This document shows positions 36,229 to 64,000 of a DNA stretch of 64,000 nt, piece by piece (positions within the stretch are counted from its first letter, which is position 1; the number at the start of each line of letters is the position of its first letter). Made by a program: the position numbers and the translations under genes. The notes beneath the pieces are model-generated. The model was not told where the DNA came from and did not search any database. It saw only the letters and a list, made by a program, of their open reading frames with translations. Source of the DNA: Alteraurantiacibacter buctensis. GTDB lineage: Bacteria > Pseudomonadota > Alphaproteobacteria > Sphingomonadales > Sphingomonadaceae. The stretch spans positions 124,001 to 188,000 of the forward strand of contig NZ_WTYV01000003.1 in NCBI RefSeq assembly GCF_009827655.1, given 5' to 3'.

Positions 36229-37050
36229 ATGACGACACGACGCGAAGCCATCGGCCTGCTGGCCCATCTCGGCCTGGGTGCGGGAGCAGCGGCGCTGCTG
36301 CCGGGCGGCGTGCTGGCGCAAGCCGGGAGCGCGGGCGGCGACTGGCGGCCCTTGCTGAACGGGCGTGACCTGACCGGCTGGACTTTCTTCCAGGATGGCG
36401 TGGGCGCGCAGGACCGCGACGGGGTGATCGCCTTCCACGATGGCGAGATGCACGTGCTGGGCCCGGAATACACAGGCCCGGAGAACCCCGGCATGGGCTA
36501 TATCGCCACGGCGGAGGAATACGGCGATTATCACCTGAGCCTGGAATACAAGTGGGGCCCGCGCCGCTTTGCCCCGCGTGAACTGGCCAAGCGTGACAGC
36601 GGCATCCTCTACCACGCCCCCTCGGGCCGTGATTACCTGTGGCCGGACTGCGTGGAATACCAGATCATGGAGCAGAGCACGGGCGATGCCATCCCGGTCA
36701 ACCACCGGGCGATCCAGGCGATATCCGCCGGGGGCCTGCCTTCGTGGCCGCGCGACTTCCCCGGCAACACGCAGTATGCGCCGCAGGTGAATGCCGGGCC
36801 CAACCTGCGCCAGCATATCCGGGCAGACGGCAACTTCGATACGCTGGAAGGCTGGAACACGGTGGAGCTGATCTGCCGGGGTGACAGCGCGGCCCACGTG
36901 GTCAACGGGCGCATTGTCACCGCGCTCTATGGCCTGCAGGCCCAGCATGAGGCCGATCGCGCCTATGCCAGTGTCACGCGCGGGCGCATCCTGTTGCAGA
37001 TCGAAAGCGCGGAAATTTCTTTCCGCAACGTCCGCATCCGCTCGCTGTAA
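36229..37050 (+). CDS. Secreted DUF1080 protein, 3-keto-disaccharide hydrolase family
   Basis: A 273-residue protein with a Tat-type signal (TTRREAIGLLAHLGLGAGAA) and one DUF1080 concanavalin-like domain, beginning at WRPLLNGRDLTGWTFFQDG. This family is called 3-keto-disaccharide hydrolase, and some members act on 3-keto-glycosides by lysis, hydration or hydrolysis. The mature protein would be periplasmic, where the 3-dehydrogenase encoded at 45.3-47.5 kb should work. The gene is divergent from a TetR regulator and ends three bases before the converging GMC oxidoreductase gene. The exact reaction is inference. Confidence 0.8.
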   Translation: MTTRREAIGLLAHLGLGAGAAALLPGGVLAQAGSAGGDWRPLLNGRDLTGWTFFQDGVGAQDRDGVIAFHDGEMHVLGPEYTGPENPGMGYIATAEEYGDYHLSLEYKWGPRRFAPRELAKRDSGILYHAPSGRDYLWPDCVEYQIMEQSTGDAIPVNHRAIQAISAGGLPSWPRDFPGNTQYAPQVNAGPNLRQHIRADGNFDTLEGWNTVELICRGDSAAHVVNGRIVTALYGLQAQHEADRAYASVTRGRILLQIESAEISFRNVRIRSL

Positions 37051-37053
37051 GGC

Positions 37054-38676
37054 TCAGCCGCGCGCGTCTTCCAGCACCAGTTCGGCCGCCCGCTGCGCCA
37101 CCGCGATGGCAGGGCCGTTGGTGTTGCCGGAAACGGGCGTGGGCATGATCGAGCAGTCGATGACCCGCAGCCCTGCCACGCCGTGAACGCGGCAGCGCGC
37201 ATCGGTGACCGAATCCGCCGGGCTGGTGCCCATGCGGCAGGTGCCGGTGCCGTGCAGGCCGCCTTCTACCATCTTGGCCAGTTCGGCGGCGATGGCCTCG
37301 TCATCCTGCACTTCCGGTCCGGGCATCCGCTCCCGGCCGATGAAGGGCTTCAGCGGATCGCTGGTGGCGATGGCGCGGAACAGCTTGAACAGCTCGATCG
37401 ACTTGGCCTTGTCGTAGGGGTCGGCCCAGATGGCGGTGTCGATCACCGGCACGGTGCGGAAATCGGGTGACGTCACCGTCACGCTGCCACGGCTCCTGGG
37501 GCGCAGGTGATAGCCGGAGAAGGTGAGGCCCGGATTGGGGGTGAGCGGGCTACCGGGCTTGGCGGCCATCTCGTTCACCGTGCGCATGGCAAAGGGGGCG
37601 GCGGCCACCTGGAAATCGGGCCAGTCCGCGTCCACCCCCTCGCTGGCAACGAGGCCGGTCAGCGGCATGCCCACGCGGGCCAGGTGGCCGGTGCCGGTGA
37701 GGAAATACTGCAGGGCATTGCGGTACAGCCGCCAGCCGAAGAACTCGCGATTGGTGCCGGGGTGGTTGGTCAGGTCGAACGAGACGCCGAACTTGGTGTG
37801 ATCGGACAGGTTCTGGCCCACGGCGGGCAGGTCGGCCAGCACCGGGATGTCGAGGCCCTGCAGTGCTGCGCCCGGCCCCACGCCGGAGAGCTGGAGCAGG
37901 TGGGGCGAGCCATAGACCCCGGCGGAGAGGATCACCTCGCCCTTGGCGGTGAACGTGCGTTCCTGCCCGTGGGCCTCGGTGACAACCCCGGTAGCGCGGC
38001 CGTTTTCGATCACGATGCGCTTCACCGCCGTGTGCATGGCCACGGCCAGGTTGCGGCGGCCCTCCACCGGCTTGATGAAGGCCTTGTAGGTGCTCTCGCG
38101 GACGCCCTTGCGGTCCACCGTGTATTGCGAGCGGCCCACGCCGTGGGAGTAGGGCTGGGTGATGTCGTCCAGCCAGGGCATGCCTTGCGTGGCGAAACCT
38201 TGCGCCAGCGCGTCGAACACCGGGCTTTGATAGGTGCTGGCGGTGATTTGCAGCTCGCCATCGCGGCCACGGCCGGGGTGGGCGCCGGCCTCGCGATAGC
38301 TTTCCACCTGTTTGTAGCAGCGGGCGATCTCGTCCCAGCCCCAGCCGGGCAGGCCCATGGCGGTCCAGCTATCGAAGTCCTGCGGCATGCCGGGCAGGTA
38401 CCAGGTGCCGTTGATCGCGCTCGATCCGCCCATGCCGCGGCCATAGGTGTGGATGCCGCCGCGCATCCCTTCGCGCGGTTTCAGCGGGTAGACGCGGAAG
38501 TAGGCCGGGTTGCCCATGATCTTCACGAAGCCGCCGGCCATCTTGATGAAGGGGTGCTGGTTGTCGCCCCCGTCCTCGATCAGCAGGACGCGGGTGGCAG
38601 GATCGGCGCTGAGCCGGTTGGCGAGGACGCAGCCGGCCGAGCCTGCGCCGATGATGATGTAGTCGAAGCTGTCCAC
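37054..38676 (-). CDS. GMC-family FAD oxidoreductase (choline dehydrogenase-like)
   Basis: A 540-residue flavoprotein with an N-terminal FAD-binding motif (FDYIIIGAGSAGCVLANRLS), the GMC signature GMGGSSAINGTWYLPG, and a C-terminal catalytic pair, H475 (HGTGTCRMG) and N520 (SGNTNGPAI). It has no signal peptide and would oxidise an alcohol in the cytoplasm. The GTG start is supported by a G-rich ribosome-binding site and by the glycine motif falling at residue 10. Close relatives include alcohol, polyethylene glycol and glycoside oxidases. Divergent from the C-glycoside deglycosidase genes, it could be the sugar C3 oxidase or an oxidase of a released side chain. Confidence 0.85.
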   Translation of the reverse strand: MDSFDYIIIGAGSAGCVLANRLSADPATRVLLIEDGGDNQHPFIKMAGGFVKIMGNPAYFRVYPLKPREGMRGGIHTYGRGMGGSSAINGTWYLPGMPQDFDSWTAMGLPGWGWDEIARCYKQVESYREAGAHPGRGRDGELQITASTYQSPVFDALAQGFATQGMPWLDDITQPYSHGVGRSQYTVDRKGVRESTYKAFIKPVEGRRNLAVAMHTAVKRIVIENGRATGVVTEAHGQERTFTAKGEVILSAGVYGSPHLLQLSGVGPGAALQGLDIPVLADLPAVGQNLSDHTKFGVSFDLTNHPGTNREFFGWRLYRNALQYFLTGTGHLARVGMPLTGLVASEGVDADWPDFQVAAAPFAMRTVNEMAAKPGSPLTPNPGLTFSGYHLRPRSRGSVTVTSPDFRTVPVIDTAIWADPYDKAKSIELFKLFRAIATSDPLKPFIGRERMPGPEVQDDEAIAAELAKMVEGGLHGTGTCRMGTSPADSVTDARCRVHGVAGLRVIDCSIMPTPVSGNTNGPAIAVAQRAAELVLEDARG

Positions 38677-38750
38677 TGATCCCGTCCCCTGGGGCCTGAT
38701 TGCGTTTGTCCGGCGCGTCATAATGGGCTTGACCGCGCTCGTCCAGAAAA

Positions 38751-38786: not shown

Positions 38787-38812
38787 TTCCAATTCTGTGG
38801 GTGAGGATAGCG

Positions 38813-39196
38813 ATGCTGCCAGTCGAACGTGTGATCGGGGAAGAAGGGCTTGCTGCCAGCGGCAGCGGCGTGAAACTGGCCATGCGCCTGCCGTGGTATC
38901 GCAGCCTGCCGTTCTCGGTGGTCGAAGTGGCCAGCCTGGAGGTTGACGGCAGGGCGGTCGACCTCTCCGACGCGCAGATCGAATACAATGGCGAGAGCTG
39001 GCCGCTGGCCGAGAATGGCGAGAAGGTCGACACCTTCTGGTTCATCCGCGATTCGTCGTTCCTGGTGCTTCCCTCGCTGGCCCTTCCGGTCGACAGCGAG
39101 CACGAGGTGGCGCTGAACCTGTTCGTCAGCCCGCCCTACATTCCCGGCATGAAGCGCGTGAACCCGCAGACCGACACGCTGCGCGTGGCCGCCTGA
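38813..39196 (+). CDS. C-glycoside deglycosidase beta subunit (DUF6379 type)
   Basis: A 127-residue beta-rich protein matching the small subunit of C-glycoside deglycosidases (CarC, DgpC, DfgB type; DUF6379). Recognisable points are the N-terminal VIGEEGL, MRLPWYRSLPFSVVEVASLE, VDGRAVDL and the late FVSPPYIPG. These subunits form a complex with an alpha subunit and help bind the 3-keto-C-glucoside. The ATG at 38813 is preceded by GAGGAT; a longer open frame upstream lacks a good start. The alpha subunit gene begins 14 bases after its stop, as in known pairs. Confidence 0.75.
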   Translation: MLPVERVIGEEGLAASGSGVKLAMRLPWYRSLPFSVVEVASLEVDGRAVDLSDAQIEYNGESWPLAENGEKVDTFWFIRDSSFLVLPSLALPVDSEHEVALNLFVSPPYIPGMKRVNPQTDTLRVAA

Positions 39197-39210
39197 GAGA
39201 GGATCGAACA

Positions 39211-40212
39211 ATGACCACCGCCACCGGCCCCAAAGTGGGCGTCACGCTCTATTCGTTCACCAACGAATTCCTCACCCGCCAGTTCGAGCTGGATACGCTG
39301 CTGGCCGAAGTGGCGAAGCGCAAGCTTGGTCCCAACATCGAGATCATCGGCTTCCAGAGCTTCCGCGAGTTCCCCGACGTGTCGGACGCCTTCGCCGAGC
39401 AGTTCCAGCAGATGATGGCCGATACCGGCCTTAACCCCGTGTCCTGCGCGATCAATTCCGACCGCTTCCTGAAGCCCGGCCAGCAGCCGATCGAGGACGC
39501 GGCGTTGGTGGAGTACCACAAGCGCCAGCTGCGCAGCGCCAAGAAGCTGGGCTTCCAGCTGGTCCGCTACCAGTTCGCGCTGCCGGTCCACCTGCTGCCC
39601 GAGGTCGCTCCCTATGCCGAGGAGCTGGACATCCGCATGGGCGTGGAAGTCCACGCGCCGATGTGGGCCGGCCACCCGGCCGTGCAGGCCTATGGCGAGA
39701 TGTACGACAAGCTGAACACCCCCTACCTGGGCTGGATTCCGGACTTCGGTGGGACGGCCAGCCGCATCCCGGAATCGATGCTGGACGCCGCCCGCGCCAA
39801 GGGTGCGAAGGAAGACCTGCTGAACAAGCTGAAGGAAGTCTGGCTGCAGGACGGGCAGAGCTACGAAAAGGCCGGGCGTTTGCGCGAATGGGGCATGGCC
39901 CACGGGCATGAGCCGCTGCACATCCAGGCGGCGTGCCTGGCCTTCTTCATCCTCTCCAACCACGACCCCAAAAGCTGGGCCGCGCTGGTTGACCGCACGA
40001 TCCACATCCACGGCAAGTTCTACGGCGTGAGCGAGGACCTGGTTGAGGAAGCGATCGACTACGACACGATCCTGCGCCTGTTCAAGGATGGCGGCTTCAC
40101 CGGCACGATGGTGAGCGAGTGGGAAGGCCACGCCTATGACATGCGCGACGCCTTCGAACAGGTGCGCCGCCACCAGGCGATGGCCCGCCGGGTGTGGGGG
40201 CCGGACGCATGA
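39211..40212 (+). CDS. C-glycoside deglycosidase alpha subunit (TIM barrel)
   Basis: A 333-residue AP-endonuclease-2/sugar-isomerase TIM barrel of the alpha-subunit type of C-glycoside deglycosidase (CarB, DgpB, DfgA). Those enzymes cleave the carbon-carbon bond between a 3-keto-sugar and an aromatic ring. Candidate metal ligands are E146 (GVEVHAPMW), D178 (WIPDFGG), H265/H267 (TIHIHGKFY) and E303 (VSEWEGHAY). The family pattern HIHGKFY with downstream EWEGH is characteristic. It is larger than ordinary sugar-phosphate isomerases, with an insertion around 200-240. AGAGAGGATCG precedes the ATG, and its stop overlaps the next start. Confidence 0.75.
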   Translation: MTTATGPKVGVTLYSFTNEFLTRQFELDTLLAEVAKRKLGPNIEIIGFQSFREFPDVSDAFAEQFQQMMADTGLNPVSCAINSDRFLKPGQQPIEDAALVEYHKRQLRSAKKLGFQLVRYQFALPVHLLPEVAPYAEELDIRMGVEVHAPMWAGHPAVQAYGEMYDKLNTPYLGWIPDFGGTASRIPESMLDAARAKGAKEDLLNKLKEVWLQDGQSYEKAGRLREWGMAHGHEPLHIQAACLAFFILSNHDPKSWAALVDRTIHIHGKFYGVSEDLVEEAIDYDTILRLFKDGGFTGTMVSEWEGHAYDMRDAFEQVRRHQAMARRVWGPDA

Positions 40213-40979
40213 GCTGGGAGCTATCCGTCAACCTCGAATATGGCTTCACTGAAGCGGGCGAGAAGATCGAAGACCGCATTGCCGCAGCCGCCGCTGCGGG
40301 CTTTACCAAGGTGGAACTGTTCCTTCTCAAGGGCCGCGACCTGCCAGCCATCAAGGCGGCGCTGGATGCCAACGGCGTGCAACTGGTCAGCACTGTGGCG
40401 GACTACGTCACCCAGCTGGTCGACCCCGCCACGCATGACGGCTTCTGCGAAACCTTCCGCGAGGCGGCCGAGAACGCCCGGTTCCTGGGCTGCGGCAACG
40501 TGGTGGTCACTTCCGGGCGCGGCGTGCCCTGGCTGAAGCGGCCGGTGCAGCTTGCCATCTTTGCCGATGCGCTGCGCAAGATCGTGCCGATTGCCGAGGA
40601 ACTGGGCACCACGATCCTGCTGGAATCGGCCAATACCCGGCACGATCATCCCGGCGTGCTGTGCTCGACCACGCAAGACAGCGTGGTGGTAGCCGACATG
40701 GTCGATAGTCCGCGCGTGAAGGTGCTCTACGATCTCTACCATTCGGTGGTGGAGGGCGAAGATCCGGAAGCCGAGTTGCAGGCCGCGATGCACCAGGTGG
40801 TGCACGTCCAGATTGCCGATGCGCCGGGGCGGGGTGAACCGGGGTCTGCCGCTATCGACTGGCCGGGCGCGCTCGCGATGCTCGAACGGCTGGGCTACCG
40901 CGGCCTGATCGGCATCGAATGCCAGCCGCAGCGTCCGTCGGCCGAAGCCTTCGCCCACATCCGGAACCTTTGCCGCTGA
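40209..40979 (+). CDS. Hydroxypyruvate isomerase-family TIM barrel
   Basis: A 256-residue TIM barrel like hydroxypyruvate isomerase or 2-oxo-tetronate isomerase: YDLYHSVVEGEDPEAEL, then VVHVQIADAPGRGEPGSA and IGIECQP match the metal and substrate sites of that family. It is translated together with the deglycosidase alpha subunit (ATGA overlap), so it probably acts on the 3-keto-sugar or a fragment released from it. The reaction in this setting is unknown. Confidence 0.75.
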   Translation: MSWELSVNLEYGFTEAGEKIEDRIAAAAAAGFTKVELFLLKGRDLPAIKAALDANGVQLVSTVADYVTQLVDPATHDGFCETFREAAENARFLGCGNVVVTSGRGVPWLKRPVQLAIFADALRKIVPIAEELGTTILLESANTRHDHPGVLCSTTQDSVVVADMVDSPRVKVLYDLYHSVVEGEDPEAELQAAMHQVVHVQIADAPGRGEPGSAAIDWPGALAMLERLGYRGLIGIECQPQRPSAEAFAHIRNLCR

Positions 40980-41107: not shown

Positions 41108-42019
41108 ATGAAGCTGGTTTCGCGCAAGGGCTGCGGCCTGCTGGTGCTGGGCGTGATCGTGGCTCTGGGCCTGTTTCTGCTGGTCAACCGCGATACGATC
41201 CAGCGCATGTTCCTGGGCGGGGTGAAAGTCTACGAGACGCAGGCGCCCGATATTCCCGCCGACCTGCCGCGCCCGGCCATCCTGGTCTTCTCCAAGACCA
41301 ACGGCTTCCGCCACGAAGAGGCGATCCCGGCTGCCAATGACCTGTTTGCCCGACTGGCGCAGGAGAACGGCTGGGGCATCTACACCACTGAAAACGGCGC
41401 GGCCTTCTCGCCCGAAATCCTCGCCCGCTTCGATGCGGTGGTGTTCAACAACGTATCGGGCGACGTGTTCACCCCCGATCAGCGCGAAGCCTTCAAGTCC
41501 TTCATAGAGAACGGCGGCGGCTTCGTGGGTTTCCACGGCAGCGGTGGCGATAATGAATATGCCTGGACCTGGTATGTCGACGAGCTGATCGGCGCGCAGT
41601 TCATCGGCCACCCGATGGACCCGCAGTTCCAGCAGGCCACCTTGCGGGTAGAGGACAAGAACCACCCCGCCACGGCCACGCTGCCGGACGAATGGACGCG
41701 CGAGGAGGAGTGGTATTCCTTCGCCGCCTCGCCCCGGGCCAAGGGCTACAACGTGCTGCTGACGCTGGATGAGGCGACCTACCAGCCCGAAGGGCTGATG
41801 GGGCAGGACCTGGCGATGGGGGCCGATCACCCGATGGTCTGGTGGCACTGCCAGGGCCAGGGGCGCGCGTTCTTCTCGGCGCTGGGCCACAAGGCGGAAT
41901 ATTACGCCGAGGCCGGCAATGTCGCCCTGCTGCTGGGTGCCACGCGCTGGGCGCTGCGGCTGGAAGGGGAGGGCTGCGATCCGGCACCGACCAACGGGAC
42001 CAACGGGGAAGGGGAATAG
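41108..42019 (+). CDS. ThuA-domain protein with N-terminal membrane anchor
   Basis: A 303-residue protein with an N-terminal hydrophobic segment (LLVLGVIVALGLFLLV) and a ThuA (trehalose utilisation) domain: PAILVFSKTNGFRHEEAIPA, FDAVVFNNVSGDVFTPDQ, GFVGFHGSGG and MVWWHCQGQGRAFFSALGHK. ThuA proteins are class I glutamine amidotransferase-like and are often found with 3-keto-sugar metabolism, such as 3-keto-trehalose in rhizobia. The anchor places the domain in the periplasm. The transporter gene begins two bases after its stop. Confidence 0.8.
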   Translation: MKLVSRKGCGLLVLGVIVALGLFLLVNRDTIQRMFLGGVKVYETQAPDIPADLPRPAILVFSKTNGFRHEEAIPAANDLFARLAQENGWGIYTTENGAAFSPEILARFDAVVFNNVSGDVFTPDQREAFKSFIENGGGFVGFHGSGGDNEYAWTWYVDELIGAQFIGHPMDPQFQQATLRVEDKNHPATATLPDEWTREEEWYSFAASPRAKGYNVLLTLDEATYQPEGLMGQDLAMGADHPMVWWHCQGQGRAFFSALGHKAEYYAEAGNVALLLGATRWALRLEGEGCDPAPTNGTNGEGE

Positions 42020-42021
42020 GA

Positions 42022-43320
42022 ATGGCCAGCCAGCCACAACCGGCGATCAACCGATCGGCCATCTACTGGATCAGCGTGCTTGCGCTGTTCACCGCCGCGC
42101 TGGCCAATGCCGTTCGTGCCGGGGCGGCCGGGGCAATGAAGGCCGACCTGCTCGACCCGATCGATGCCATCCATTCTGGCGAAATGATCGGCACGGTGCT
42201 GGGCAACAGCTTCCTGGGTTTTGCCCTCAGCCTGCTTGTGATCAGCCCTTTGCTGGACCGGTTCGGCGCGAAGAAGGTGATCCTGTTTGCCGCCTTCTGC
42301 TTCGTGGTGGGCCCGGCGCTGGTGCTGGCCAGCGCGGGGACGGGCGGTGCCATCTATGCCGTGCTCAACGTCGCCATGGTGCTGTGGGGCTTCGGCTGGG
42401 GGGCCACCGAGGCATCGATCAACCCCGTCATCGCCACGCTTTATCCGGATGACAAGACGGGCAAACTGAACGCGCTCCACGCCTGGTGGCCGGCGGGGAT
42501 CATCGTCGGCGGGCTGCTGTCGGTGCTGTTCTTCCGCCAGCTCGACCTTGACTGGCGGCTGCTGGTTGCCCTGCCGATCATTCCCGGCCTGGCGCTGGCC
42601 GTCTGGGCCATGCGCCACACGTTTCCGCAGACGGAAAGCACGGTGGCGGGGGTCAGCTTCAATGAAATGATGGCCGAACCGTTCAAGCGGCCCACCTTCT
42701 GGATTTTCTTTGCGATCATGTTCCTCACCGCCAGCGCGGAACTGGCCCCCGGCGCGTGGGTGGACGTGACGCTGACCGAGACGGTCGGCTTCTCGGGCAT
42801 CCTGGTGCTGGTCTATGTCAGCGCGATCATGTTCGTGATGCGCCACTTTGCCGGCGCGCTGGAGCACCGCTTCTCCGACATGGGCCTGCTGTGGTTCACC
42901 ACCGTGCCCGCCGCCATCGGGCTTTACCTGCTGAGCACGGCGACATCGGCCGCCACTGCGCTGTTCGCGGCCACGTTCTGGGCCTTTGGCGTGTGCTTCA
43001 TGTGGCCCACCATGCTGGCCGCCGTGGCCCGCCGCTTTCCCAAGAGCGGGCCCTGGGGCATTGGCCTCGTCGGCTTTGCCGGGGCGCTGGCGATCCGCTT
43101 CGTCCTGCCGCAACTGGGCGCGATCTATGACCAGGCCAAGCTGGCGCGCGCCGGCGGGGCAGAAGCACTGGCCGCGCTGCAACCGGGCACGCCCGAAATG
43201 CACGGCGTACTGGCCTATGCGGCGGAAACATCATTCCAGACCGTGGCGGTGATCCCGGTGGTGCTGTTCTTCGTGTTCGGTGCGGTCTGGTTCTTCGAGC
43301 GGGGCAAGAACACGCGATGA
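42022..43320 (+). CDS. MFS transporter
   Basis: A 432-residue major facilitator with twelve helices; a family loop motif occurs as DRFGAKKVILF after helix 2. It resembles fucose/glucose-galactose-type MFS sugar transporters in having WWPAGIIVGGLL and FGWGATEASINPV segments. It lies between the ThuA gene (two bases before) and an epimerase gene (four-base overlap), so it probably imports a keto-sugar or glycoside. The exact substrate is unknown. Confidence 0.82.
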   Translation: MASQPQPAINRSAIYWISVLALFTAALANAVRAGAAGAMKADLLDPIDAIHSGEMIGTVLGNSFLGFALSLLVISPLLDRFGAKKVILFAAFCFVVGPALVLASAGTGGAIYAVLNVAMVLWGFGWGATEASINPVIATLYPDDKTGKLNALHAWWPAGIIVGGLLSVLFFRQLDLDWRLLVALPIIPGLALAVWAMRHTFPQTESTVAGVSFNEMMAEPFKRPTFWIFFAIMFLTASAELAPGAWVDVTLTETVGFSGILVLVYVSAIMFVMRHFAGALEHRFSDMGLLWFTTVPAAIGLYLLSTATSAATALFAATFWAFGVCFMWPTMLAAVARRFPKSGPWGIGLVGFAGALAIRFVLPQLGAIYDQAKLARAGGAEALAALQPGTPEMHGVLAYAAETSFQTVAVIPVVLFFVFGAVWFFERGKNTR

Positions 43321-44174
43321 AGATCGGTATCAACCTGCTGTTGTGGACCGGGCATGTGACCCCGGCCCACCGCCCGATGCTCGAAGCCATCGCCGCAACG
43401 GGGTACGACGGGGCAGAGATACCCGTGTTCGATACCTCGGACCCCGCGCACTATCGCCGGCTAGGGCAGTTGCTGGATGATTTGGGCCTGGCGCGAACGG
43501 TTTGTTCCACCATACCCGATGCGGCGCACAACCCGGTTTCGCCGGATCCTGCCGCCCGCACGGCCGCAGTTGATCACGTGCGCCGGCTGCTCGATTGTGC
43601 GGTCGAACTTGGCGCGCAGAGCATTGTCGGCCCGCTGTTCCAGCCGCTTGGCGAGTTCACTGGCAGTCCGGCGACCGCGCAGGAACTGGACCATTGTGCC
43701 GAATTTCTGCGGACTATCGGGCCGTTGTTTGCCGATGCGGGACTGGTTTGTGCGGTCGAGCCGCTCAACCGGTTCGAGGCCTATCTGCTCAACACTGGCG
43801 CGCAGGCCGAAGCCATGATGCGCCGTGTCGATTCGTCCGCAGTTGGCGTGTTGTATGACACTTTCCATGCGCACATCGAGGAAAAGGATCCGATCGCGGC
43901 ACTGGACAGTTTGCTGGCGGCGCAGGTTGTCGCCCATATCCACATTGCCGAAAATGACCGGGGCACACCCGGCAAGGGCCACGCCAAGATCGCTGAAGCC
44001 ATCGCCCTGCTGCAGGCGCGTGGATACGATGGCTGGCTGACCATCGAGGCCTTCGGCCAGGCCGTGCCCGAGCTTGCCGCCGCCACCCGCGTATGGCGCG
44101 ATTTTTTCGCCGATCCGATGGAGGTGGTCAGCGACGGATATGCCTATATCCGCCGCTGCCTGGCTGCCGCCTAG
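43317..44174 (+). CDS. Ketose 3-epimerase-like TIM barrel
   Basis: A 285-residue protein of the D-tagatose/D-psicose 3-epimerase group. Expected metal residues are in VEPLNRFEAYL (Glu), VLYDTFHAHIEE (Asp), AHIHIAENDRG (His) and TIEAFGQ (Glu); GTPGKGH is also typical. It would epimerise ketoses or keto-glycosides at C3. ATGA overlap with the transporter gene. It ends overlapping the converging periplasmic isomerase gene by four bases. GC and codon use look slightly lower than in the genes before it. Confidence 0.83.
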   Translation: MKIGINLLLWTGHVTPAHRPMLEAIAATGYDGAEIPVFDTSDPAHYRRLGQLLDDLGLARTVCSTIPDAAHNPVSPDPAARTAAVDHVRRLLDCAVELGAQSIVGPLFQPLGEFTGSPATAQELDHCAEFLRTIGPLFADAGLVCAVEPLNRFEAYLLNTGAQAEAMMRRVDSSAVGVLYDTFHAHIEEKDPIAALDSLLAAQVVAHIHIAENDRGTPGKGHAKIAEAIALLQARGYDGWLTIEAFGQAVPELAAATRVWRDFFADPMEVVSDGYAYIRRCLAAA

Positions 44175-45154: not shown

Positions 45155-45195
45155 CCCCTTGCTCCTTTTATCGCTTTGCCAGATGCCTGCATATC

Positions 45196-45205
45196 CGATG
45201 CATCG
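45196..45205. promoter_or_regulatory. Palindrome between divergent periplasmic genes
   Basis: CGATGCATCG is a perfect 10-bp palindrome, 42 bases from the isomerase start and 55 bases from the 3-dehydrogenase small-subunit start. It is a candidate operator. Confidence 0.3.
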
Positions 45206-45259
45206 ATTTGCCGGAAGCTTATGCCTTCTCTAACTTTGCGGAACGATGGGAGAATTGGG

Positions 45260-56608: not shown

Positions 56609-59600
56609 ATGACAGGAATGCACAAGGGCCCGTTGCTGGCTTTCGTTTCGGCGCTGGCCCTGGCCGGTTGCGCCACCGCCCAGGTGCAGACCGTCGCGCC
56701 GCCGCCGATGGTGGCCGCAGTCGATCCCCTTGCGGCGGGATTTGCCGCGCCCCCGGCCGAAGCGCGCCCGCGCGTCTGGTGGCACTGGATGCACGGCAAC
56801 GTGACACAGGAAGGCATTGCGGCGGACCTGGCGTGGATGGACCGCGTGGGCATCGGCGGCTTCCAGAACTTCGATGCCAACCTCGACACGCCGCAAGTGG
56901 TCGAGCGGCCCTTGCGTTATATGACGCCCGAATGGCGCGAAGCCTTCCGCTTCGCCGCCAGCGAGGCTGCGCGGCTGGACCTGGAGATGGCCATCGCCTC
57001 ATCCCCCGGCTGGAGCCACACCGGCGGGCCGTGGGTGCCGGTTGAGGATGGCATCAAGAAGCTGGTCTGGGGCGAAACCCGCCTGGTTGGCGGACAGCGC
57101 TTTGCCGACGCGATCAACGCCGCGCCCACGGTGACTGGCACCTATCAGGCCATGGCCTTGCAGCCCGACGTGATCCACGGCGATACCGGCCACGCCCCGC
57201 CGCAGGCAGCGGGCCGCATTGCCGTGCTGGCCGTTCCGGTGAGCGAGCCGACGCTGCCGCAGCCGCGCTACAGCCTGCCGGATGGCACGGCGATTGACGG
57301 GGCGGGGCTGGCCGATGCTTCGCTGGAAAGCGGCTTCGCCCTGCCACTCAGCCAAGATCGCCAGGGCGGTCTGACCATTACCTATCCGCAGCCGGTGACC
57401 GTGCGCACGCTGCACATCGCCCTGCCGGGCCTGGTTCGGCCCTTTCGGGACCCGCCGGTCAGCCCGTCGCTGGAAGCCCGCATCGGCGGCCAGTGGCAGC
57501 ACGTGGCCGACCTGCCGCTGACGAATACGCCGGCCACGCACACATTCGATCCGGTGACGGCGGCCGAATTCCGGCTGGTGATCCGCAACAATACGAGCGC
57601 CGTCGCCCCAACCGAGATGGACGGCGTGCCCGGCGCTATTGTGGTCGATATCTTCGCGCTGGGCGACCTCAGCACGGTGCCGCTCAACGACCTGCGGCTC
57701 AGCGGAGCGCATCGCGTGGGCCGGGCGCAGGAGAAGGCCGGGTTTGCCGGCATCTACGATTATTACCCGATCATGTCGGACGATGCGACGCCGGTCGATC
57801 TGACGACCGCCCAAGTGATCGACCTTACCGATCGCATCGCACCCGACGGCACGCTTGACTGGACCCCGCCCGCCGGAAGCGATTGGCTCGTGCTCGACTT
57901 CGGCTGGTCGCTGACCGGCAAGACCAACCATCCCGCACCGCCCGAAGCCACCGGGCTGGAGGTAGACAAGTACGATCCGGATGCGGTCCGCCGCTATTTC
58001 GATACCTACCTGGGCATGTACCGCGAGACTGTGGGTGATGACCTGATTGGCGCGCGCGGCGTAACCGCCCTTCTGACCGATTCGATCGAGGCCGGCTATG
58101 CCAACTGGACGCCCGCGATGGAGCGCGAGTTCGCGGCGCGACGCGGCTATGCCCTGCGGCCGTGGATGCCAGCGCTGGCGGGGATCGTCATCGGCTCCGA
58201 AGCCGAGACCGAGCGCTTCCTCTACGATTGGCGCCTCACGTTGAGCGACCTGCTCACCGACAGTCTCTATCGCGTGGCGGCGGAAGCGGCCGACGCCAAC
58301 GGACTGACGCTTTATGGTGAGGCGCTAGAGGACAAGCGCCCGATGCTGGGCGATGACCTGTCGATGCGCCGCTACGCCGACATCCCGATGGCGGCGCTGT
58401 GGACCTATCCCCGCAGCGGCCAGGTGCGCACCACCTTGCTGGGCGACATGAAGGGCGCGGCCAGCACGGCGCACGTCTATGGCCAGCGCTTCGTGGCGGC
58501 GGAATCAATGACTGCCGCCAGCAGCCCCTGGGCCTTTGCCCCGCGCGACCTCAGGCGCTTTATCGACCTTGAGTTTGCCTATGGCATCAACCGCCCGGTG
58601 ATCCATACCAGCGTCCACCAGCCGAGCGATGACCTGCAGCCCGGACTGTCGCTGGCGATCTTCGGGCAGTACTTCAACCGCCACGAAACCTGGGCGGAGA
58701 TGGCCGGGCCATGGGTCGACTACATGGCGCGCAATGCGTGGATGCTGAGCCAGGGGCAGTATTTTGCCGACATCGCGCTGTTCCGCGGCGAGGAATCGCC
58801 GGTTACCGCGCAGTTTGCCACCAGCATCCCGGCCGGCCTGCCGAGCCGCTATGCCTACGACTTCGTCAATGCAGAGATGCTCGCCGATGCCTTCCGGGTG
58901 GAGCAAGGCCAGTTGGTGAGCCAGGGCGGCACCCGCTACCGCGTGCTGGCGCTGCGGCCCGACGCGCGCAACATGACCCTGCCAACCCTGCGCCGGATCG
59001 CCCAACTTGTCGAGCAGGGGGCAACGGTGGTGGGGCGCAAGCCGCTTTCCACGCCCTCGCTGGCGGATGACGCAGCAGAATTCGCCACGCTGGCCGACCG
59101 CTTGTGGCAGAACCCGCAGGTGATCGACAGCGATGATCCCGAAGCGGCGCTTGCCGCGCTGGGAATTGGCGCAGACTTTGCCTTTACCGGCGGTGGCGAA
59201 GGGGCGGAAATCCTGTTTCTGCACCGGCAGGTTGCCAACCAGCACCTCTACTTCCTGACCAATCGCAAGCACCGGCCAGAAACCATCGAAGCCCGCTTCC
59301 GCGTTACGGGATTGCAGCCGGAATGGTGGGACGCAGTCAGCGGCACGGCGCGGCCGCTGTCTTACCGCACCGATGGGCAGCACACGGTGATCCCGCTCAC
59401 ACTGGAGGCCGAGGATTCAGGCTTCGTGGTGTTCCGGGAGCCGACGCAGGCGCCGTCTGCCAGCCATCCTGTGTCCGAGCCGACCGTGCTGCTGTCGCTG
59501 GCAGAGCGACCCTGGCAGGTCACCTTCCAGCCCGGACGCGGGGCACCCGAAGGCCCGCACACGTTCAACCACCTGCAATCGCTGCACACGCTCGACAACC

Positions 59601-59968
59601 CGGGCTTGCGCCATTTCTCTGGCGTGTCGAACTGGACCACTGCCTTTGACGTGCCGGCAGCCGCCTTGAGCAGCCGCCTGTGGCTCGATCTGGGGCAGGT
59701 GGGCGATGTGGCGGAAGTGTGGATCAACGGCACCTATGCCGGGACAAGCTGGTTCGCGCCGGATCGGGTCGACATCACCCGTCATGTGCGCGCCGGCAGC
59801 AACCGGGTGGAGGTGCGGGTGGCCAACCTGTGGGTCAACCGGCTGATCGGTGATGTGCAGCCGGGGGCAGAGCGGGTGACCTTTACTGCCGCGCCGACCT
59901 ATCATCCCGACGCGCCTTTGCGCCCGGCGGGCCTGATCGGTCCGGTGCGCTTGCTGCAGGGCGATTAA
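56609..59968 (+). CDS. GH106 alpha-L-rhamnosidase
   Basis: A 1119-residue exported glycoside hydrolase of family GH106. The N-terminus is a lipoprotein-like signal (LAFVSALALAGCATAQ) with lipobox LAGC; mature protein begins soon after. Early blocks VWWHWMHGNVTQEGIAADL and DRVGIGGFQNFD and the later YMTPEWREAFRFAASEA are typical of GH106. The C-terminal 150 residues form a galactose-binding-like beta domain (LWLDLGQVGDVAEVWINGTY). GH106 enzymes of Novosphingobium release rhamnose from flavonoid glycosides such as naringin and rutin. Start could be the ATG nine bases later; the lipobox is the same. Confidence 0.9.
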   Translation: MTGMHKGPLLAFVSALALAGCATAQVQTVAPPPMVAAVDPLAAGFAAPPAEARPRVWWHWMHGNVTQEGIAADLAWMDRVGIGGFQNFDANLDTPQVVERPLRYMTPEWREAFRFAASEAARLDLEMAIASSPGWSHTGGPWVPVEDGIKKLVWGETRLVGGQRFADAINAAPTVTGTYQAMALQPDVIHGDTGHAPPQAAGRIAVLAVPVSEPTLPQPRYSLPDGTAIDGAGLADASLESGFALPLSQDRQGGLTITYPQPVTVRTLHIALPGLVRPFRDPPVSPSLEARIGGQWQHVADLPLTNTPATHTFDPVTAAEFRLVIRNNTSAVAPTEMDGVPGAIVVDIFALGDLSTVPLNDLRLSGAHRVGRAQEKAGFAGIYDYYPIMSDDATPVDLTTAQVIDLTDRIAPDGTLDWTPPAGSDWLVLDFGWSLTGKTNHPAPPEATGLEVDKYDPDAVRRYFDTYLGMYRETVGDDLIGARGVTALLTDSIEAGYANWTPAMEREFAARRGYALRPWMPALAGIVIGSEAETERFLYDWRLTLSDLLTDSLYRVAAEAADANGLTLYGEALEDKRPMLGDDLSMRRYADIPMAALWTYPRSGQVRTTLLGDMKGAASTAHVYGQRFVAAESMTAASSPWAFAPRDLRRFIDLEFAYGINRPVIHTSVHQPSDDLQPGLSLAIFGQYFNRHETWAEMAGPWVDYMARNAWMLSQGQYFADIALFRGEESPVTAQFATSIPAGLPSRYAYDFVNAEMLADAFRVEQGQLVSQGGTRYRVLALRPDARNMTLPTLRRIAQLVEQGATVVGRKPLSTPSLADDAAEFATLADRLWQNPQVIDSDDPEAALAALGIGADFAFTGGGEGAEILFLHRQVANQHLYFLTNRKHRPETIEARFRVTGLQPEWWDAVSGTARPLSYRTDGQHTVIPLTLEAEDSGFVVFREPTQAPSASHPVSEPTVLLSLAERPWQVTFQPGRGAPEGPHTFNHLQSLHTLDNPGLRHFSGVSNWTTAFDVPAAALSSRLWLDLGQVGDVAEVWINGTYAGTSWFAPDRVDITRHVRAGSNRVEVRVANLWVNRLIGDVQPGAERVTFTAAPTYHPDAPLRPAGLIGPVRLLQGD

Positions 59969-60084: not shown

Positions 60085-60987
60085 TCAGATTCCCGCAGGC
60101 TGGAACAGGCCGGCATCCGGCGCAGGATGCGGCATTGTCTGCGGGCCGCCTTCACCGATTCCCCACTGGTCCATCATGTGCGGCGCAGGCGTGATCACCT
60201 GGTACTGGTGGTTCTCGAAGTCGACCTCTTCCAGTTCGGCCGTGTACTCCACGGCAAAACCGGCTGGCGTGGTAAAATAGCTGAAGGTGTTGTTGCCGGC
60301 CACGTGCCGGCCGGGACCCCAGCGCAGGTCCACCTGACCCCGCTTCAGGCGCACGATGCCACGCATCATCTCGTCCACGTTGGGCATGTCGTAGGCCACG
60401 TGGTTCAGGCACGGCGGACCGGGCAGGAAGGCGATCCGGTGGTGGGCCGAATTGCAGCGCAGGAAACACATGAAATCGCCCAGCCAGTCGCTGATGCGGA
60501 AGCCCAGCACATCGGTGAAGAAGGCAATCTCCTCCTTGTGGCGGGGTGAATGCATCACGATGTGGCTGATTTTTTCAGGAACGCCCTCGAACCGCTCAAG
60601 CTGGCGGGCGGTGCCGCGCTGGACGCCGGCGGAGATTTCGTAAGGCAGGCCGTCCTTGCTGAAGAAGCGGAAGCCGTAGCCGCCGCCGAACTGGTTGAGC
60701 TCGCGCGGCTCGAACACGATCTGGCAGCCATAATCGCGCACCTTGGCATGGAGCGCATCGACATCGGCGGGCGTATCGGCGGCGAGGGCGATGATGTCGA
60801 TCCGCTGCACCGCATCCTGCCGCAGGCGGACGACGTAAAGCTCGTCATGCCCCTGCGCGGCGAAATAGACCATGCCATCCGCCTCGTGCACTTCCTTCAA
60901 CAGCCACTTGTCGGCGTAAAATGCGCGCTCTGTCGCCAGGTCGTTCACAGCATAGCCAACATAGCGGATTTCGGTAACGCGGCTCAT
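60085..60987 (-). CDS. Type I extradiol ring-cleavage dioxygenase (VOC family)
   Basis: A 300-residue two-domain VOC dioxygenase. The iron-binding triad is visible as H142 (SHIVMHSP), H196 (LNHVAYDM) and E247 (FAVEYTAEL), in the second domain. It would open a catechol-type ring next to its two hydroxyls. The flavonoid pathway dioxygenase FdeC belongs to this superfamily, but catechol and biphenyl enzymes do too. GGAAGG precedes the ATG at 60987. It lies 213 bases downstream of the NodD-like regulator, same strand, behind an operator-like region. Confidence 0.83.
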   Translation of the reverse strand: MSRVTEIRYVGYAVNDLATERAFYADKWLLKEVHEADGMVYFAAQGHDELYVVRLRQDAVQRIDIIALAADTPADVDALHAKVRDYGCQIVFEPRELNQFGGGYGFRFFSKDGLPYEISAGVQRGTARQLERFEGVPEKISHIVMHSPRHKEEIAFFTDVLGFRISDWLGDFMCFLRCNSAHHRIAFLPGPPCLNHVAYDMPNVDEMMRGIVRLKRGQVDLRWGPGRHVAGNNTFSYFTTPAGFAVEYTAELEEVDFENHQYQVITPAPHMMDQWGIGEGGPQTMPHPAPDAGLFQPAGI

Positions 60988-61192: not shown

Positions 61193-61200
61193 TGGCAAAT

Positions 61201-62112
61201 CTATGGGTTGGTGCGCGCGATCCGTTCGATCTTTCCGCGCAGCCAAAGCAACCCTGCGTCTTCAGAGCGTCCGGCATTGTAGCACAGCATCTGCTTCATC
61301 GGTGGCACCGGATAGGGCACAGGGACCCGGCGGATCGCGAAGCGATCCTCCAGTTGGACCACCAGGCGCTCGTGCAGCACCGCCAGGCGGCCGGTTCGCT
61401 CCAGCAGCCAGGGTACCAGTGTGAACACCGAAGTGGTCACCTCGATACGCCGCCGGATGCCCATGATTTCGAGCTGACGGTCTGCATAGGAGGCGACGGG
61501 GCGCTCGCCGATGACCACCGCTACATGACCTGCCGCCTCGAATTCTTCGGCGGTGATCGACCCCTTGGCCAGAACCGGATTCTCGGCGGCACCGACAACC
61601 ACCTGCGGCTCGCGGTATAGTTCGTAGGACGGGTGGCTGCCTGTCACGATGTATTCCGGCGTGATGACAACGTCGACACTGCCTTCATCGAGATGCTCGG
61701 CAATGGTCAGGTTGGGCAATTGGCAATCGAGCTGGATCGAGGGTGCCTCTGCGGCAAGTTCGGCCACCAGAGGCACGATGATCGACGCCTGGACGTAGTC
61801 CGAGGTGACGATGCGGAAGGTGCGCTGGCTGGTCGCCGGGTCGAAATTGGGCGATTTGGCCAGCATGGATTCAAGCTGTTGCAGGCTTTTCCTTACTTGC
61901 GGCATTAACTCGTCGGCAAAGGCGGTGGGGTGCATCCGCTTGCCCTGCAGGACCAGAAGATCGTCGCCGAAGAATTCACGCAGGCGGGCCAGGGCCGCGC
62001 TCATGGCCGGTTGGCTCAGGTTGACCCGTTCGGCAGCGCGGCTGACGCTTCGAGTGGTCATCAGGGCATCGAATGCCACCAGCAGGTTCAGATCAAGGCC
62101 TTTGAAACGCAT
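61201..62112 (-). CDS. NodD/NahR-like LysR regulator, candidate flavonoid sensor
   Basis: A 303-residue LysR protein whose N-terminus (MRFKGLDLNLLVAFDALMT, then LSQPAMSAALARLREFF) is almost that of rhizobial NodD, the flavonoid-responsive activator of nodulation genes. The effector domain also keeps the NodD/NahR pattern (ITPEYIVTGSHPSYELYRE, AGHVAVVIG, GIRRRIEV, WLRGKIERI). The start at 62112 is chosen to match NodD; a start 21 bases earlier is possible. It lies upstream of a ring-cleaving dioxygenase on the same strand and 55 bases from a TetR gene. No nodulation genes are near, so it probably senses a catabolic substrate. Confidence 0.85.
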   Translation of the reverse strand: MRFKGLDLNLLVAFDALMTTRSVSRAAERVNLSQPAMSAALARLREFFGDDLLVLQGKRMHPTAFADELMPQVRKSLQQLESMLAKSPNFDPATSQRTFRIVTSDYVQASIIVPLVAELAAEAPSIQLDCQLPNLTIAEHLDEGSVDVVITPEYIVTGSHPSYELYREPQVVVGAAENPVLAKGSITAEEFEAAGHVAVVIGERPVASYADRQLEIMGIRRRIEVTTSVFTLVPWLLERTGRLAVLHERLVVQLEDRFAIRRVPVPYPVPPMKQMLCYNAGRSEDAGLLWLRGKIERIARTNP

Positions 62113-62167
62113 GCGCGACAGCTTGCTGGCCAAGCCCGATCATTGCAACTGTAAATTGAAAGGCGGC

Positions 62168-62863
62168 CTACCTATCGGCAGGGCGGATTGATGATTGCTC
62201 GTCAAACAGCAGGTAGGCCAGCGCCATGCGCGACAATTCCGGCTTCATCAGGGTCCACACCTTCTCGTCACCGGATTCAGCAGTCGCGCCCAGGCCATAC
62301 TGTCGGGCGATGGTCGCGAAGATGATCTGGAAGACCGCCTGTACCTTGATTTCCGGATCCGCCCCGCCGATTTCGTCACGGAAGGTCATGATCGCATCGA
62401 GCGACATGCGCGCGGAACGTTGGGCTGTTTCGCGCCCGGGGCCCGATACGGCCGGATCGATCGCAGCCCGCTGCATGATCGTGCGCAACAGCGCCGCGTT
62501 TTCCGCAAGAAAGCGGCTGTAGCGATCGATGTAGAGCGGCAGGAATTCGGCCAGGCTGCCGCTCTGTGCCAGCACCTCGTCGATCATGGCCCGTTCGCCG
62601 GCGATCACCTGCTCAAGTTCCTGCGCGATGACCGCGTGCAGCAGGCGGTCCTTGCTTTCGAAGCGAAGGTAGATCGAACCGATCGAGACGTTGCCGCGCT
62701 CGGATACGTCCTGCAGCGTAAAGTCCTCGCTACCCCGTTCCAGCATCAACGCCTTGGTCGCCTCGAGCATCCTTTCGAAGGAGGCGAGGGAGCGGCCCTG
62801 GCGGGGTTTTCGGCTGATGGCACTGGTCGCAAGTGCGCGCGTCTGGGTTCCGAATGTTGACAT
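62168..62863 (-). CDS. TetR-family regulator
   Basis: A 231-residue TetR repressor with helix-turn-helix FTLQDVSERGNVSIGSIYLR near residues 48-67, then FESKDRLLHAVIAQEL. An extended basic N-terminus of about 25 residues (SRKPRQGRSLASFERM) precedes the DNA-binding domain. It stands divergent from the partial TonB receptor gene, 364 bases apart, and before the NodD-like gene on the same strand. It may control receptor expression or aromatic catabolism. Confidence 0.82.
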   Translation of the reverse strand: MSTFGTQTRALATSAISRKPRQGRSLASFERMLEATKALMLERGSEDFTLQDVSERGNVSIGSIYLRFESKDRLLHAVIAQELEQVIAGERAMIDEVLAQSGSLAEFLPLYIDRYSRFLAENAALLRTIMQRAAIDPAVSGPGRETAQRSARMSLDAIMTFRDEIGGADPEIKVQAVFQIIFATIARQYGLGATAESGDEKVWTLMKPELSRMALAYLLFDEQSSIRPADR

Positions 62864-63227
62864 GAAGGCCGTTATGCGGAATTAAACGATAACAGCAATT
62901 CTAATTTGGATTCGTCAAACGGTTCGAATTCGGTGTTGGCTGTCAGAGGTTGAGGAAATTGCTGCCCCGAAACGTCTTTGGATGAGGGCTCGGGCAGGCG
63001 GAGGGAAGGACCAGTCATCCATCTTGTGAATGGGTTTGTATGGAAACTTACAATTTCACCTGATTGACCGCTTCGGCCATAACGCCGTTCGTGCCGAAAG
63101 CTCGCAAATGAGGGCGCAGCTTTTGGTTATGAAACACGCCTCCCAAGGGGGAGGCAGGGACCCCCGCGTGGGGCGGGGTGGAAATAGAACAAGGGTGCCC
63201 TTCGAGGGCGCTGAATGGGAGGAAGTC
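62864..63227. other. Divergent leader region with several hairpins
   Basis: 364 bases without a gene. On the plus strand three compact hairpins occur before the TonB receptor: GCCTCCC/GGGAGGC (63138-63155), CCCCGC/GCGGGG (63162-63178) and GCCC/GGGC (63197-63209). The left part is A/T-rich and probably holds both promoters. The hairpins suggest post-transcriptional control of the receptor. Confidence 0.5.
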
Positions 63228-64000
63228 ATGCGTATCACCAAGAGATCGATCCTGCTTGCCGGTTGCGGCATTGCGGCGCTGGCCATGCCGGCGCACGCCC
63301 AGGACAACGCTGAGGAAGAGGATGTCATCGTCGTTACTGCGCAGAACCGCGCGCAGGATGTGACTGACGTGCCGATCGCGATCGACGTGGTCGGCGGCGA
63401 GGAACTCGCCAATGAAGGCTTCACCGATGCCAACGACCTGAGCCAGATCGCTCCGGCGGTGCAGGTGATCCAGGACCAGGGCACGGTGAAGATCACCCTG
63501 CGCGGCATCGGCACCACCTCGAACGACGAGGCGCAGGACACCTCGGTCGTGGCCAATATCGATGGCGAATACATCAACCGCCCGAACGTGCTGGGCGTGG
63601 CGATCTTCGATCTGGAGCGCGTGGAGGTTCTGCGCGGCCCGCAAGGCACGCTGTATGGCCGCAACTCCACTGCCGGTGCGATCAATTTCATCACCCGCAA
63701 GCCGGGCGATGAGCTGGGCGCCAATGTCTCGCTGTCGCTGGGCAACTACAGCGCCCTGCGCGTGGATGCCGGTGTTGACGTGCCGCTGGCCGATGGCCTG
63801 GGCCTGCGTGTTGCCGGCTTCAAGGACTCGCGCGACGGCTATGTCGATCATCCCGCCGGCTACGGCTTCGGTCCGTTCCCGCGGTTCGGCGGCGGCCAGT
63901 CGGACGATAACTCGTCCTATGGTGGCCGTGCGACGCTGGCGTTCGACGATGGTGGCCCGTTCTCGGCCAATATCCAGTTCGAATATGCCGATCGGCAGTT
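63228..64000 (+). CDS. TonB-dependent receptor, N-terminal part (cut by window end)
   Basis: The first 257 residues of an outer-membrane receptor. Signal peptide (SILLAGCGIAALAMPAHAQ), TonB box (EDVIVVTAQNRAQDVTDVPI), plug domain (VEVLRGPQGTLYGRNSTAG) and the first barrel strands are visible; no stop occurs before the window end. GGGAGGAA precedes the ATG. It belongs to the same broad group as the receptor at 32545. Its closeness to the NodD-like regulator and dioxygenase suggests import of an aromatic or glycosylated plant compound. Confidence 0.9.
   Translation, partial: MRITKRSILLAGCGIAALAMPAHAQDNAEEEDVIVVTAQNRAQDVTDVPIAIDVVGGEELANEGFTDANDLSQIAPAVQVIQDQGTVKITLRGIGTTSNDEAQDTSVVANIDGEYINRPNVLGVAIFDLERVEVLRGPQGTLYGRNSTAGAINFITRKPGDELGANVSLSLGNYSALRVDAGVDVPLADGLGLRVAGFKDSRDGYVDHPAGYGFGPFPRFGGGQSDDNSSYGGRATLAFDDGGPFSANIQFEYADRQ

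Follow-up and report, generated by a model that had tools for sequence, protein, structure and literature searches.

The 64,000-nucleotide stretch of Alteraurantiacibacter buctensis DNA analysed here (the window) spans positions 124001-188000 of contig C16 in a genome of 3.77 Mb and 22 contigs (G000). From position 36229 onwards it carries genes for a C-glycoside deglycosidase (CGD) pair, for glycoside and keto-sugar enzymes, for an α-L-rhamnosidase with rhamnose catabolism, for an FAD monooxygenase and for an extradiol dioxygenase-type protein. A sequence-only reading had taken these genes together as a candidate island for the degradation of flavonoid O- and C-glycosides. We called the genes by codon use, scanned them against Pfam, NCBIfam and PDB sequences, and recovered all the functions listed in that reading at or near the places it gave them; a tRNA scan of the window found none. 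For comparison we used an even draw of 246 genomes from the order (labels such as G177 and G183), together with named genomes and plasmid records. We consider it probable that the region is a catabolic island that serves to degrade glycosylated flavonoid-like polyphenols, in particular C-glycosides, with both substrate and reactions predicted from homology and gene context.

Two types of C-glycoside deglycosidase

By family and active-site residues, positions 38813-40212 hold a CGD pair whose cleavage activity is predicted. Its β subunit, a divergent form that we call type 1 (127 aa, 38813..39196, + strand), matches the Pfam family CGDB (PF19906) with 43.4 bits (cut-off 27.6), a match found on the open reading frame (ORF) 38723-39196. 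The α subunit (333 aa, 39211..40212, + strand) is a TIM barrel that hits AgCGD2 (PDB 7DNM, E 7e-46) and then 8QVC, 7XRF/7BVR and 9M3A. Plasmid pNL2 of Novosphingobium aromaticivorans DSM 12444 encodes an α protein 91% identical to that of the window, with an orthologue of the β protein, annotated as DUF6379, in the β position. We also considered that 39211-40212 might encode a lone α-like protein without a β partner; the pNL2 layout and the CGDB match at 38813-39196 rule this out. The β gene is easily overlooked: an antisense frame of the neighbouring GMC flavoprotein gene stays open across it, and a false N-terminal extension of that protein overlies it.

In AgCGD2, the metal ligands are Glu147, Asp179, His269, Lys271 and Glu305, and the catalytic residues His149 and Glu307, according to the accessible part of Mori et al. 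2021 (PMC8563793). In our alignments all seven are retained in the type 1 α protein, where the corresponding motifs read EVH, PDFG, HGK and SEWE, and equally in the α protein of a second, type 2 pair located to the right of the window (C16:193189-194714; CGDB E 5e-43; α 357 bits to 8QVC). Together with the CGDB match, these residues bear out the deglycosidase pair named in the sequence-only reading. Types 1 and 2 are 29-31% identical to each other. Two nearby CGD pairs are already known in Pseudarthrobacter, as stated in the available text of PMC10646112. The genome holds a third CGD β gene at C10:268412-268747, adjoined by a distant α gene (28% to type 2), and CGD α and β homologues also occur on large plasmids of Enterococcus raffinosus (five records).

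The known enzymes (PuCGD/DgpBC, EuCGD/DfgBC, AgCGD1/2, CarBC and PurBC; structures 7DNM, 7BVR, 7BVS, 8QVC, 8QRZ and 9M3A) share with the window pair the α TIM barrel, the CGDB-type β subunit and the seven active-site residues; the window pair differs from them in that its β subunit scores only 43 bits and in that a choline-dehydrogenase-like GMC gene adjoins it. Counted by eye on the alignments, positions 248-249 (Asn/Met in the C8-acting AgCGD2) are occupied by the bulky pair Phe/Ile in type 1 and by Asn/gap in type 2. Mainly C6-acting enzymes have small residues at 249 in the excerpt of Mori et al. (PMC8563793). These residues are suggestive of a C8/C6 split between the two types, which we put forward as a hypothesis only; a specificity read off these two positions was not accepted.

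A GMC flavoprotein linked to the type 1 pair

Divergently beside the type 1 pair lies a gene for a choline-dehydrogenase-like GMC flavoprotein (37054..38676, - strand; Pfam GMC), a candidate C-glycoside 3-dehydrogenase. Its NCBIfam match (PRK02106, 401.6 bits, cut-off 605) leaves it below the choline dehydrogenase cut-offs. We moved its start from 39045 to about 38676 on the model of the pNL2 orthologue (541 aa); the true start is likely near 38676 because CGD β occupies 38813-39196. At E<=1e-150, orthologues are found in 7 of the 246 genomes, which are exactly the seven with a type 1 CGD α (at least 63% identity) and a divergent CGDB. In six of these seven, GMC gene and CGDB are divergent neighbours (<200 bases between listed matches); in G177, about 10 kb lie between them. 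A type 2 CGDB accompanies type 1 in all seven genomes, as it does in all seven plasmid records with a type 1 α of at least 60% identity (out of 23 matching records), at a distance of <=4.5 kb in five and <=41 kb in two. The tie between GMC protein and type 1 CGD has exceptions among more distant forms: the plasmid of Novosphingobium P6W holds a GMC relative (47%) and, at 60% identity, no type 1 CGD. The window protein found no match at 1e-5 to the GMC oxidase encoded beside a Deinococcus CGD.

A role of this protein in C3 oxidation is a natural guess, which would make it a candidate new enzyme class for that reaction. Going further, we tentatively propose that GMC protein and divergent CGD form a previously undescribed unit of C-glycoside cleavage. 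A cytoplasmic 3-dehydrogenase linked to the respiratory chain would here replace the O2-dependent oxidase PurA/CarA or the NAD-dependent DgpA, and the specificity of type 1 (perhaps C8) would complement that of type 2 (perhaps C6), such that both positions, or di-C-glycosides, could be handled and the aglycone passed on to ring opening.

Predicted ring-opening genes and their relation to flavonoid pathways

The FAD monooxygenase FMO1 (47546..48661, - strand; PF01494 E 1e-28; PRK06847 over cut-off) is by its place in our tree a distant relative of a Herbaspirillum enzyme. The extradiol dioxygenase-type VOC protein EXD1 (60085..60987, - strand) matches PF00903, and its scores to the HpaD, catechol 2,3-dioxygenase and HsaC models are far under the cut-offs; residues 188, 242 and 293 of the longer ORF are possible His/His/Glu iron ligands. 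Two regulator genes follow on the same strand, one of the LysR family (61201..62133; PF00126/PF03466) and one of the TetR family (62168..62863; PF00440).

We profiled named genomes with the aligned extradiol proteins of Diaphorobacter and Massilia clusters; the best 80 of 512 matches included several Herbaspirillum and a Variovorax, with H. seropedicae absent among these 80. In H. frisingense, H. aquaticum and H. huttiense, the gene order is LysR, hydrolase, VOC, Rieske, monooxygenase, cyclase, cupin, FAH, epimerase. FdeE is described as a monooxygenase and FdeD as a Rieske protein in the available part of PMC8552027, and the glyoxalase FdeC and the cupins are compared with ifc in that of PMC11069340; from the layout given in these papers we infer that the three Herbaspirillum loci are fde clusters. 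Compared with H. frisingense, the proteins of the island reach identities of 67% (cyclase), 52% (hydrolase), 49% (FAH), 41% (LysR), 40% (FMO1) and 32% (EXD1, over 126 residues). The cyclase is the only match to its H. frisingense counterpart in the whole genome, and the window LysR is the best own-genome match to the LysR of that cluster, by a small margin. Homologues of the fde-type monooxygenase, extradiol, hydrolase, cyclase, FAH and LysR genes are thus all present, spread over about 43 kb of C16 (171.5-214.9 kb). Since cyclase, hydrolase and FAH are close to their counterparts and FMO1 and EXD1 distant, the later steps would be fde-like and the enzymes that choose the phenol would have diverged.

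As far as they are described in the material available to us, the fde cluster (naringenin, Herbaspirillum) and the ifc cluster (isoflavone, Variovorax) resemble the island in their LysR regulator, FAD monooxygenase, glyoxalase-type extradiol enzyme, α/β hydrolase, cyclase, FAH and epimerase. Both are described there for aglycones, whereas here the genes are joined to deglycosylation and scattered over the 43 kb, with FMO and extradiol enzymes diverged and the cupin unmatched among the 45 proteins compared. Further monooxygenase, extradiol and LysR genes occur elsewhere in the genome (C15:137229-139269, C16:41340-52118 and C10:51982-53813), which suggests parallel routes for different phenols.

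Co-occurrence in genomes and on plasmids

CGDB is present in 11 of the 246 genomes. The window-type extradiol gene (E<=1e-50) occurs in 23, comprising all 11 with CGDB and 12 of the 235 without (Fisher 3e-13); FMO (E<=1e-90) is found in 9/11 against 9/235 (Fisher 3e-10), and the rhamnosidase family GH106 in 7/11 against 17/235 (Fisher 9e-6). These values treat genomes as independent, and all 11 CGDB genomes belong to one family. The counts place the grouping of functions pointed out in the sequence-only reading beyond chance. Measured between start coordinates, the nearest CGDB and extradiol genes are <=13 kb apart in eight of the 11 genomes and about 42 kb apart in two. FMO and EXD genes lie next to each other in all 17 of the other genomes that have FMO, and likewise in 11 of 12 plasmid records.

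The same set of genes recurs in several arrangements. In G177, a member of another genus, matches to FAH, cyclase, GST, hydrolase, EXD, FMO and the type 1 CGD α and β genes share one strand and fit into 9 kb, the spaces between these matches being unannotated; the second CGD pair, the second glycoside 3-dehydrogenase, a Gfo/Idh and a GMC gene are close by. G183 holds both CGD pairs, EXD, GH106 and the window's module of glycoside 3-dehydrogenase, ThuA, MFS and TIM-barrel genes within 50 kb, and G189 (40 kb) and G099 (75 kb) combine both CGD pairs with FMO, extradiol, hydrolase, cyclase and FAH genes.

Among named plasmids, the best matches come from Novosphingobium, Croceicoccus, Sphingobium and Sphingomonas. 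The P6W plasmid carries in a row GH106, GH1, a CGD pair, GH43, Gfo/Idh, TIM barrel, MFS, GMC, LysR, FMO, EXD, hydrolase, cyclase and FAH; in Sphingobium TomTYG65 about 10 kb separate a CGD pair from a set of the FMO/EXD type; and pNL2 holds both CGD types, DUF1080, a GPH carrier and ThuA. A replication protein of the PF10134 family found no match in the A. buctensis genome itself, so that a plasmid location of the island is without support. A conjugative-type plasmid of Arthrobacter sp. NicSoilB11 carries in a row an annotated α-L-rhamnosidase, GMC, CGD β and CGD α.

Recurrence extends to another phylum: a plasmid of Deinococcus aetherius holds a CGD pair with GMC oxidase, VOC, cyclase, FAH, hydrolase (56% to that of the island) and monooxygenase (45%). 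Furlanetto et al. (2024) reportedly described a cluster of Deinococcus genes that serves C-glucosyl flavonoids and xanthonoids. The likeness to the Deinococcus cluster lies in the CGD pair with a GMC oxidase, and in D. aetherius also in the VOC, cyclase, FAH, hydrolase and FMO genes; the island adds to it the second CGD type, GH106, rhamnose catabolism and TonB uptake. The homology and gene-neighbourhood searches proposed in the sequence-only reading thus found the same gene set again in relatives, in P6W and in Deinococcus.

Sugar-side genes

The window part of the island begins with a DUF1080 protein of the 3-keto-disaccharide hydrolase family (36229..37050, + strand; PF06439 E 3e-31), which by eye has a twin-arginine-type signal. 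Downstream of the CGD pair and on the same strand lie a hydroxypyruvate-isomerase-like TIM barrel (40209..40979; PF01261 E 2e-37; TIGR03234 under cut-off), which perhaps acts on the released keto sugar, a ThuA-domain protein (41108..42019; PF06283 E 4e-62), an MFS transporter with corrected start (42022..43320; PF07690) and a TIM barrel of the tagatose/psicose 3-epimerase kind (43317..44174; PF01261 E 7e-42; 7DZ5 E 3e-36). A further TIM barrel (44171..45154, - strand; 8BVK E 4e-20) resembles AtOGE and retains, in an alignment counted by eye, all five of its residues H132, H134, D163, H189 and E233; apart from rhamnose isomerase, the window holds four TIM barrels. Next to it a glycoside 3-dehydrogenase is encoded on the + strand by a small subunit of the Gluconate_2-dh3 family (45176..45844; PF13618 E 5e-20), with a twin-arginine-type start by eye, and a large, fructose-dehydrogenase-like GMC subunit (45861..47549; PF05199/PF00732; 8K6K E 1e-54, 7W2J E 2e-54). 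Homology and active-site residues support the O-glycoside arm that the sequence-only reading had built from this dehydrogenase and the AtOGE-like lyase. In the accessible description of the Agrobacterium GlycDH-AtOGE-AtHYD operon for O-glycosides, a GMC glycoside dehydrogenase is likewise combined with a TIM-barrel β-eliminase that has a HxH metal motif; here, the lyase has a twin-arginine/lipoprotein-type start and the dehydrogenase a Gluconate_2-dh3 subunit.

The set for L-rhamnose catabolism is complete, with isomerase, kinase and rhamnulose-1-phosphate aldolase with dehydrogenase. On the - strand lie a DeoR-family regulator (48717..49508; PF00455/PF08220), which perhaps controls the rhamnose genes, an MFS transporter (49511..50779; PF07690) that perhaps carries rhamnose, and an FGGY sugar kinase (50755..52143; PF21546, FGGY_C_2, E 5e-65) that by family and context is a probable rhamnulokinase. 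The + strand encodes a bifunctional rhamnulose-1-phosphate aldolase/short-chain dehydrogenase (52229..54352; NF006189 and TIGR02632 over cut-off), a rhizobial-type L-rhamnose isomerase with corrected start (55296..56582; TIGR02629, 644.0 bits for the uncorrected ORF, cut-off 646.75) and a GH106 α-L-rhamnosidase (56609..59968; PF17132 E 4e-280) whose domain is full-length (positions 2-742 of 743). As judged by eye, the rhamnosidase has a lipoprotein-type start, and export-type starts are thus found on the AtOGE-like lyase, the DUF1080 protein and GH106; the N-termini of the CGDs and the monooxygenase, likewise read by eye, showed none. From this pattern we favour two compartments: removal of rhamnose and elimination of O-linked aglycones would be periplasmic, and cleavage of C-glycosides cytoplasmic.

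Extent of the island

The right boundary of the sequence-only reading, position 64000, proved to be an artefact of the window edge, which cuts a TonB-dependent receptor gene (63030..64000, + strand; PF07715; it runs to C16:189585). Related genes continue across much of the 39 kb to the right of the window. The rest of the receptor gene is followed by genes for a hydroxypyruvate-isomerase-like TIM barrel, a GPH sugar carrier, a DoxX-like protein, the type 2 CGD pair, a Gfo/Idh/MocA dehydrogenase, a TIM barrel, GST, redoxin, a second glycoside 3-dehydrogenase (small and large subunit), a Rieske VanA-type oxygenase, a DUF1080 relative, hydrolases and transporters. At 20-27 kb past the window end lie genes for an FrsA-like hydrolase and for FAH-family, histidinol-dehydrogenase-like and cyclase-family proteins, and after these further VanA-type, monooxygenase, extradiol and LysR genes. 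Elsewhere, the hydrolase, cyclase and FAH genes adjoin a monooxygenase/extradiol pair of the window type. From 36229 to the cyclase gene the distance is about 55 kb, and we put the island at about 55-65 kb within the sequence covered, the window holding its left part. In the same-genus relatives G006 and G007, too, the window block is joined to the right-hand block. To the left of the island (window 20173-34767) lie an RND efflux set, a beta-lactamase-family serine hydrolase and two more TonB receptors.

Alternative explanations

A number of observations weigh against a single pathway for C-glycosylated flavonoids. Some concern the ring-opening genes: FMO1 and EXD1 lie 11 kb apart in the window; in likeness to the Herbaspirillum enzymes each ranks only fourth within its own genome, so that another aglycone is possible; none of the 45 island proteins compared (window and right-hand part) matched the Herbaspirillum cupin; the VOC and FAH proteins of D. 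aetherius are only 23-29% like those of the island or of Herbaspirillum; and the FMO homologue of G177 (C1:14062-15207) contains two in-frame TGA stops amid otherwise open genes. Given rank four, we also rejected FMO1 as an orthologue of the Herbaspirillum monooxygenase; in the tree (2 of 27 sequences, from G177 and G007, left out for stops in their frames) the clade of FMO1 is separate from that of the Herbaspirillum enzyme and the joint of the clades is left open. The low identities of FMO1 (40%) and EXD1 (32% over 126 residues) to the Herbaspirillum enzymes and the separate clade of FMO1 favour the alternative that C-glycosides are degraded by the same CGD chemistry, with ring opening tuned to a non-flavonoid aglycone such as a xanthone (mangiferin), anthrone, chromone or C-glycosyl phenol. 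This seems somewhat unlikely to us: related systems do act on carminic acid and mangiferin in the sources as far as available, but hydrolase, cyclase and FAH are closely like those of the cluster with fde layout, and GH106 of Novosphingobium PP1Y is reported active on flavonoid glycosides in the accessible part of PMC10653915. For the flavonoid aglycone of the sequence-only reading, the later enzymes therefore speak in favour, while the monooxygenase and the extradiol enzyme leave it in doubt.

A second group of objections concerns linkage. In G010, 1.6 Mb separate the CGD gene from the extradiol gene; only PP1Y, out of the seven type 1 plasmid records, is among the 12 listed records with an extradiol protein of at least 60% identity (of 395), a count that covers plasmids and not the chromosomes of these strains; and neither FMO1 nor EXD1 was found in the 41 kb of pNL2 examined. 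The module of glycoside 3-dehydrogenase, ThuA, MFS and TIM barrel occurs without CGD in the 60 kb covered in G021 and at one locus of G010. GH106, often located elsewhere, lies <=12 kb from ring-opening genes in three of the 10 plasmid records holding both (of 37 with GH106; plasmid distances run between start coordinates and rest on the best listed places only) and <=9 kb from the extradiol gene in three of eight genomes holding both (G000, G183 and G010). Absences in the 246 genomes are to be read within the up to 7 FMO, 8 EXD and 5 GMC candidates scored per genome. One could hence see two unrelated sets side by side, namely a 3-keto-glycoside pathway for O-glycosides or disaccharides with rhamnose use, as glycoside 3-dehydrogenase operons act on O-glycosides in the descriptions available, and a separate aromatic pathway. 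The co-occurrence counts and the recurrence of CGD with FMO, EXD, hydrolase, cyclase and FAH in several genera and in Deinococcus make this improbable. The rhamnosidase might alternatively serve rhizosphere saponins or steroidal glycoalkaloids, as in tomato-root Sphingobium, the rest being incidental. A Sphingobium GH106 showed putative rhamnosidase activity on steroidal saponins (PMC10653915, available in part). GH106 relatives are frequent on Sphingobium plasmids (16 of 37 records), and EXD1 has a weak match to HsaC, a steroid enzyme (56.7 bits, cut-off 450), but it scores higher to HpaD and catechol 2,3-dioxygenase, and no other steroid-catabolic family is prominent among the proteins scanned. 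We know of no role of CGDs with saponins, and we regard this explanation as very unlikely. The figures for GH106 do rule out a tight general tie to CGD or ring opening, so that the rhamnose arm of the sequence-only reading stands as to its complete genes and full-length rhamnosidase and less firmly as to its link with the rest.

On balance we retain the catabolic island for glycosylated flavonoid-like polyphenols. Homology, and the recurrence of the genes side by side in further genera and in a second phylum, give good support to a pathway that joins C-glycoside deglycosylation to aglycone opening; rhamnose use is moderately supported, and the exact aglycone is least fixed.

A putative route and its significance

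Gene content, conserved active-site residues and recurring co-location are what we observe; in the route that we infer from them, including every reaction, localization, substrate and the order of steps, TonB receptors would import the glycoside into the periplasm, where GH106 may strip α-L-rhamnose, to be consumed by isomerase, kinase and aldolase/dehydrogenase. The exported GMC glycoside 3-dehydrogenase would oxidise glucose at C3, after which the AtOGE-like lyase could eliminate O-linked aglycones. C-linked glycosides would reach the cytoplasm via the MFS or GPH carrier and be oxidised at C3 there, with the choline-dehydrogenase-like GMC protein and the Gfo/Idh protein as candidates, before one of the two metal-dependent CGD α/β lyases (that of type 1, inside the window, or that of type 2, a little beyond its edge) splits the C-C bond. 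The FAD monooxygenase would then hydroxylate the aglycone and the extradiol enzyme cut its A ring, and the product would presumably be handled by the α/β hydrolase and by the cyclase-family and FAH-family enzymes whose genes lie 20-27 kb past the right-hand edge of the window.

Taken singly, the parts are members of known families; what appears to be new is their combination in sphingomonads and the putative GMC-CGD unit, for neither of which a report was found in the open-access literature searched. A strain described in 2025 is said to be the first bacterium from soil for which catabolism of a C-glycosylated flavonoid was shown, and its route, as described in the accessible part of that paper, ends at the aglycone (PMC12724307). 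C-glycosides withstand the usual glycosidases, and little is known of what becomes of them in soil. If our reading is true, the island would encode a full route from a rhamnosylated or C-glycosylated polyphenol to the opened ring, and would link CGDs to an fde-like pathway.

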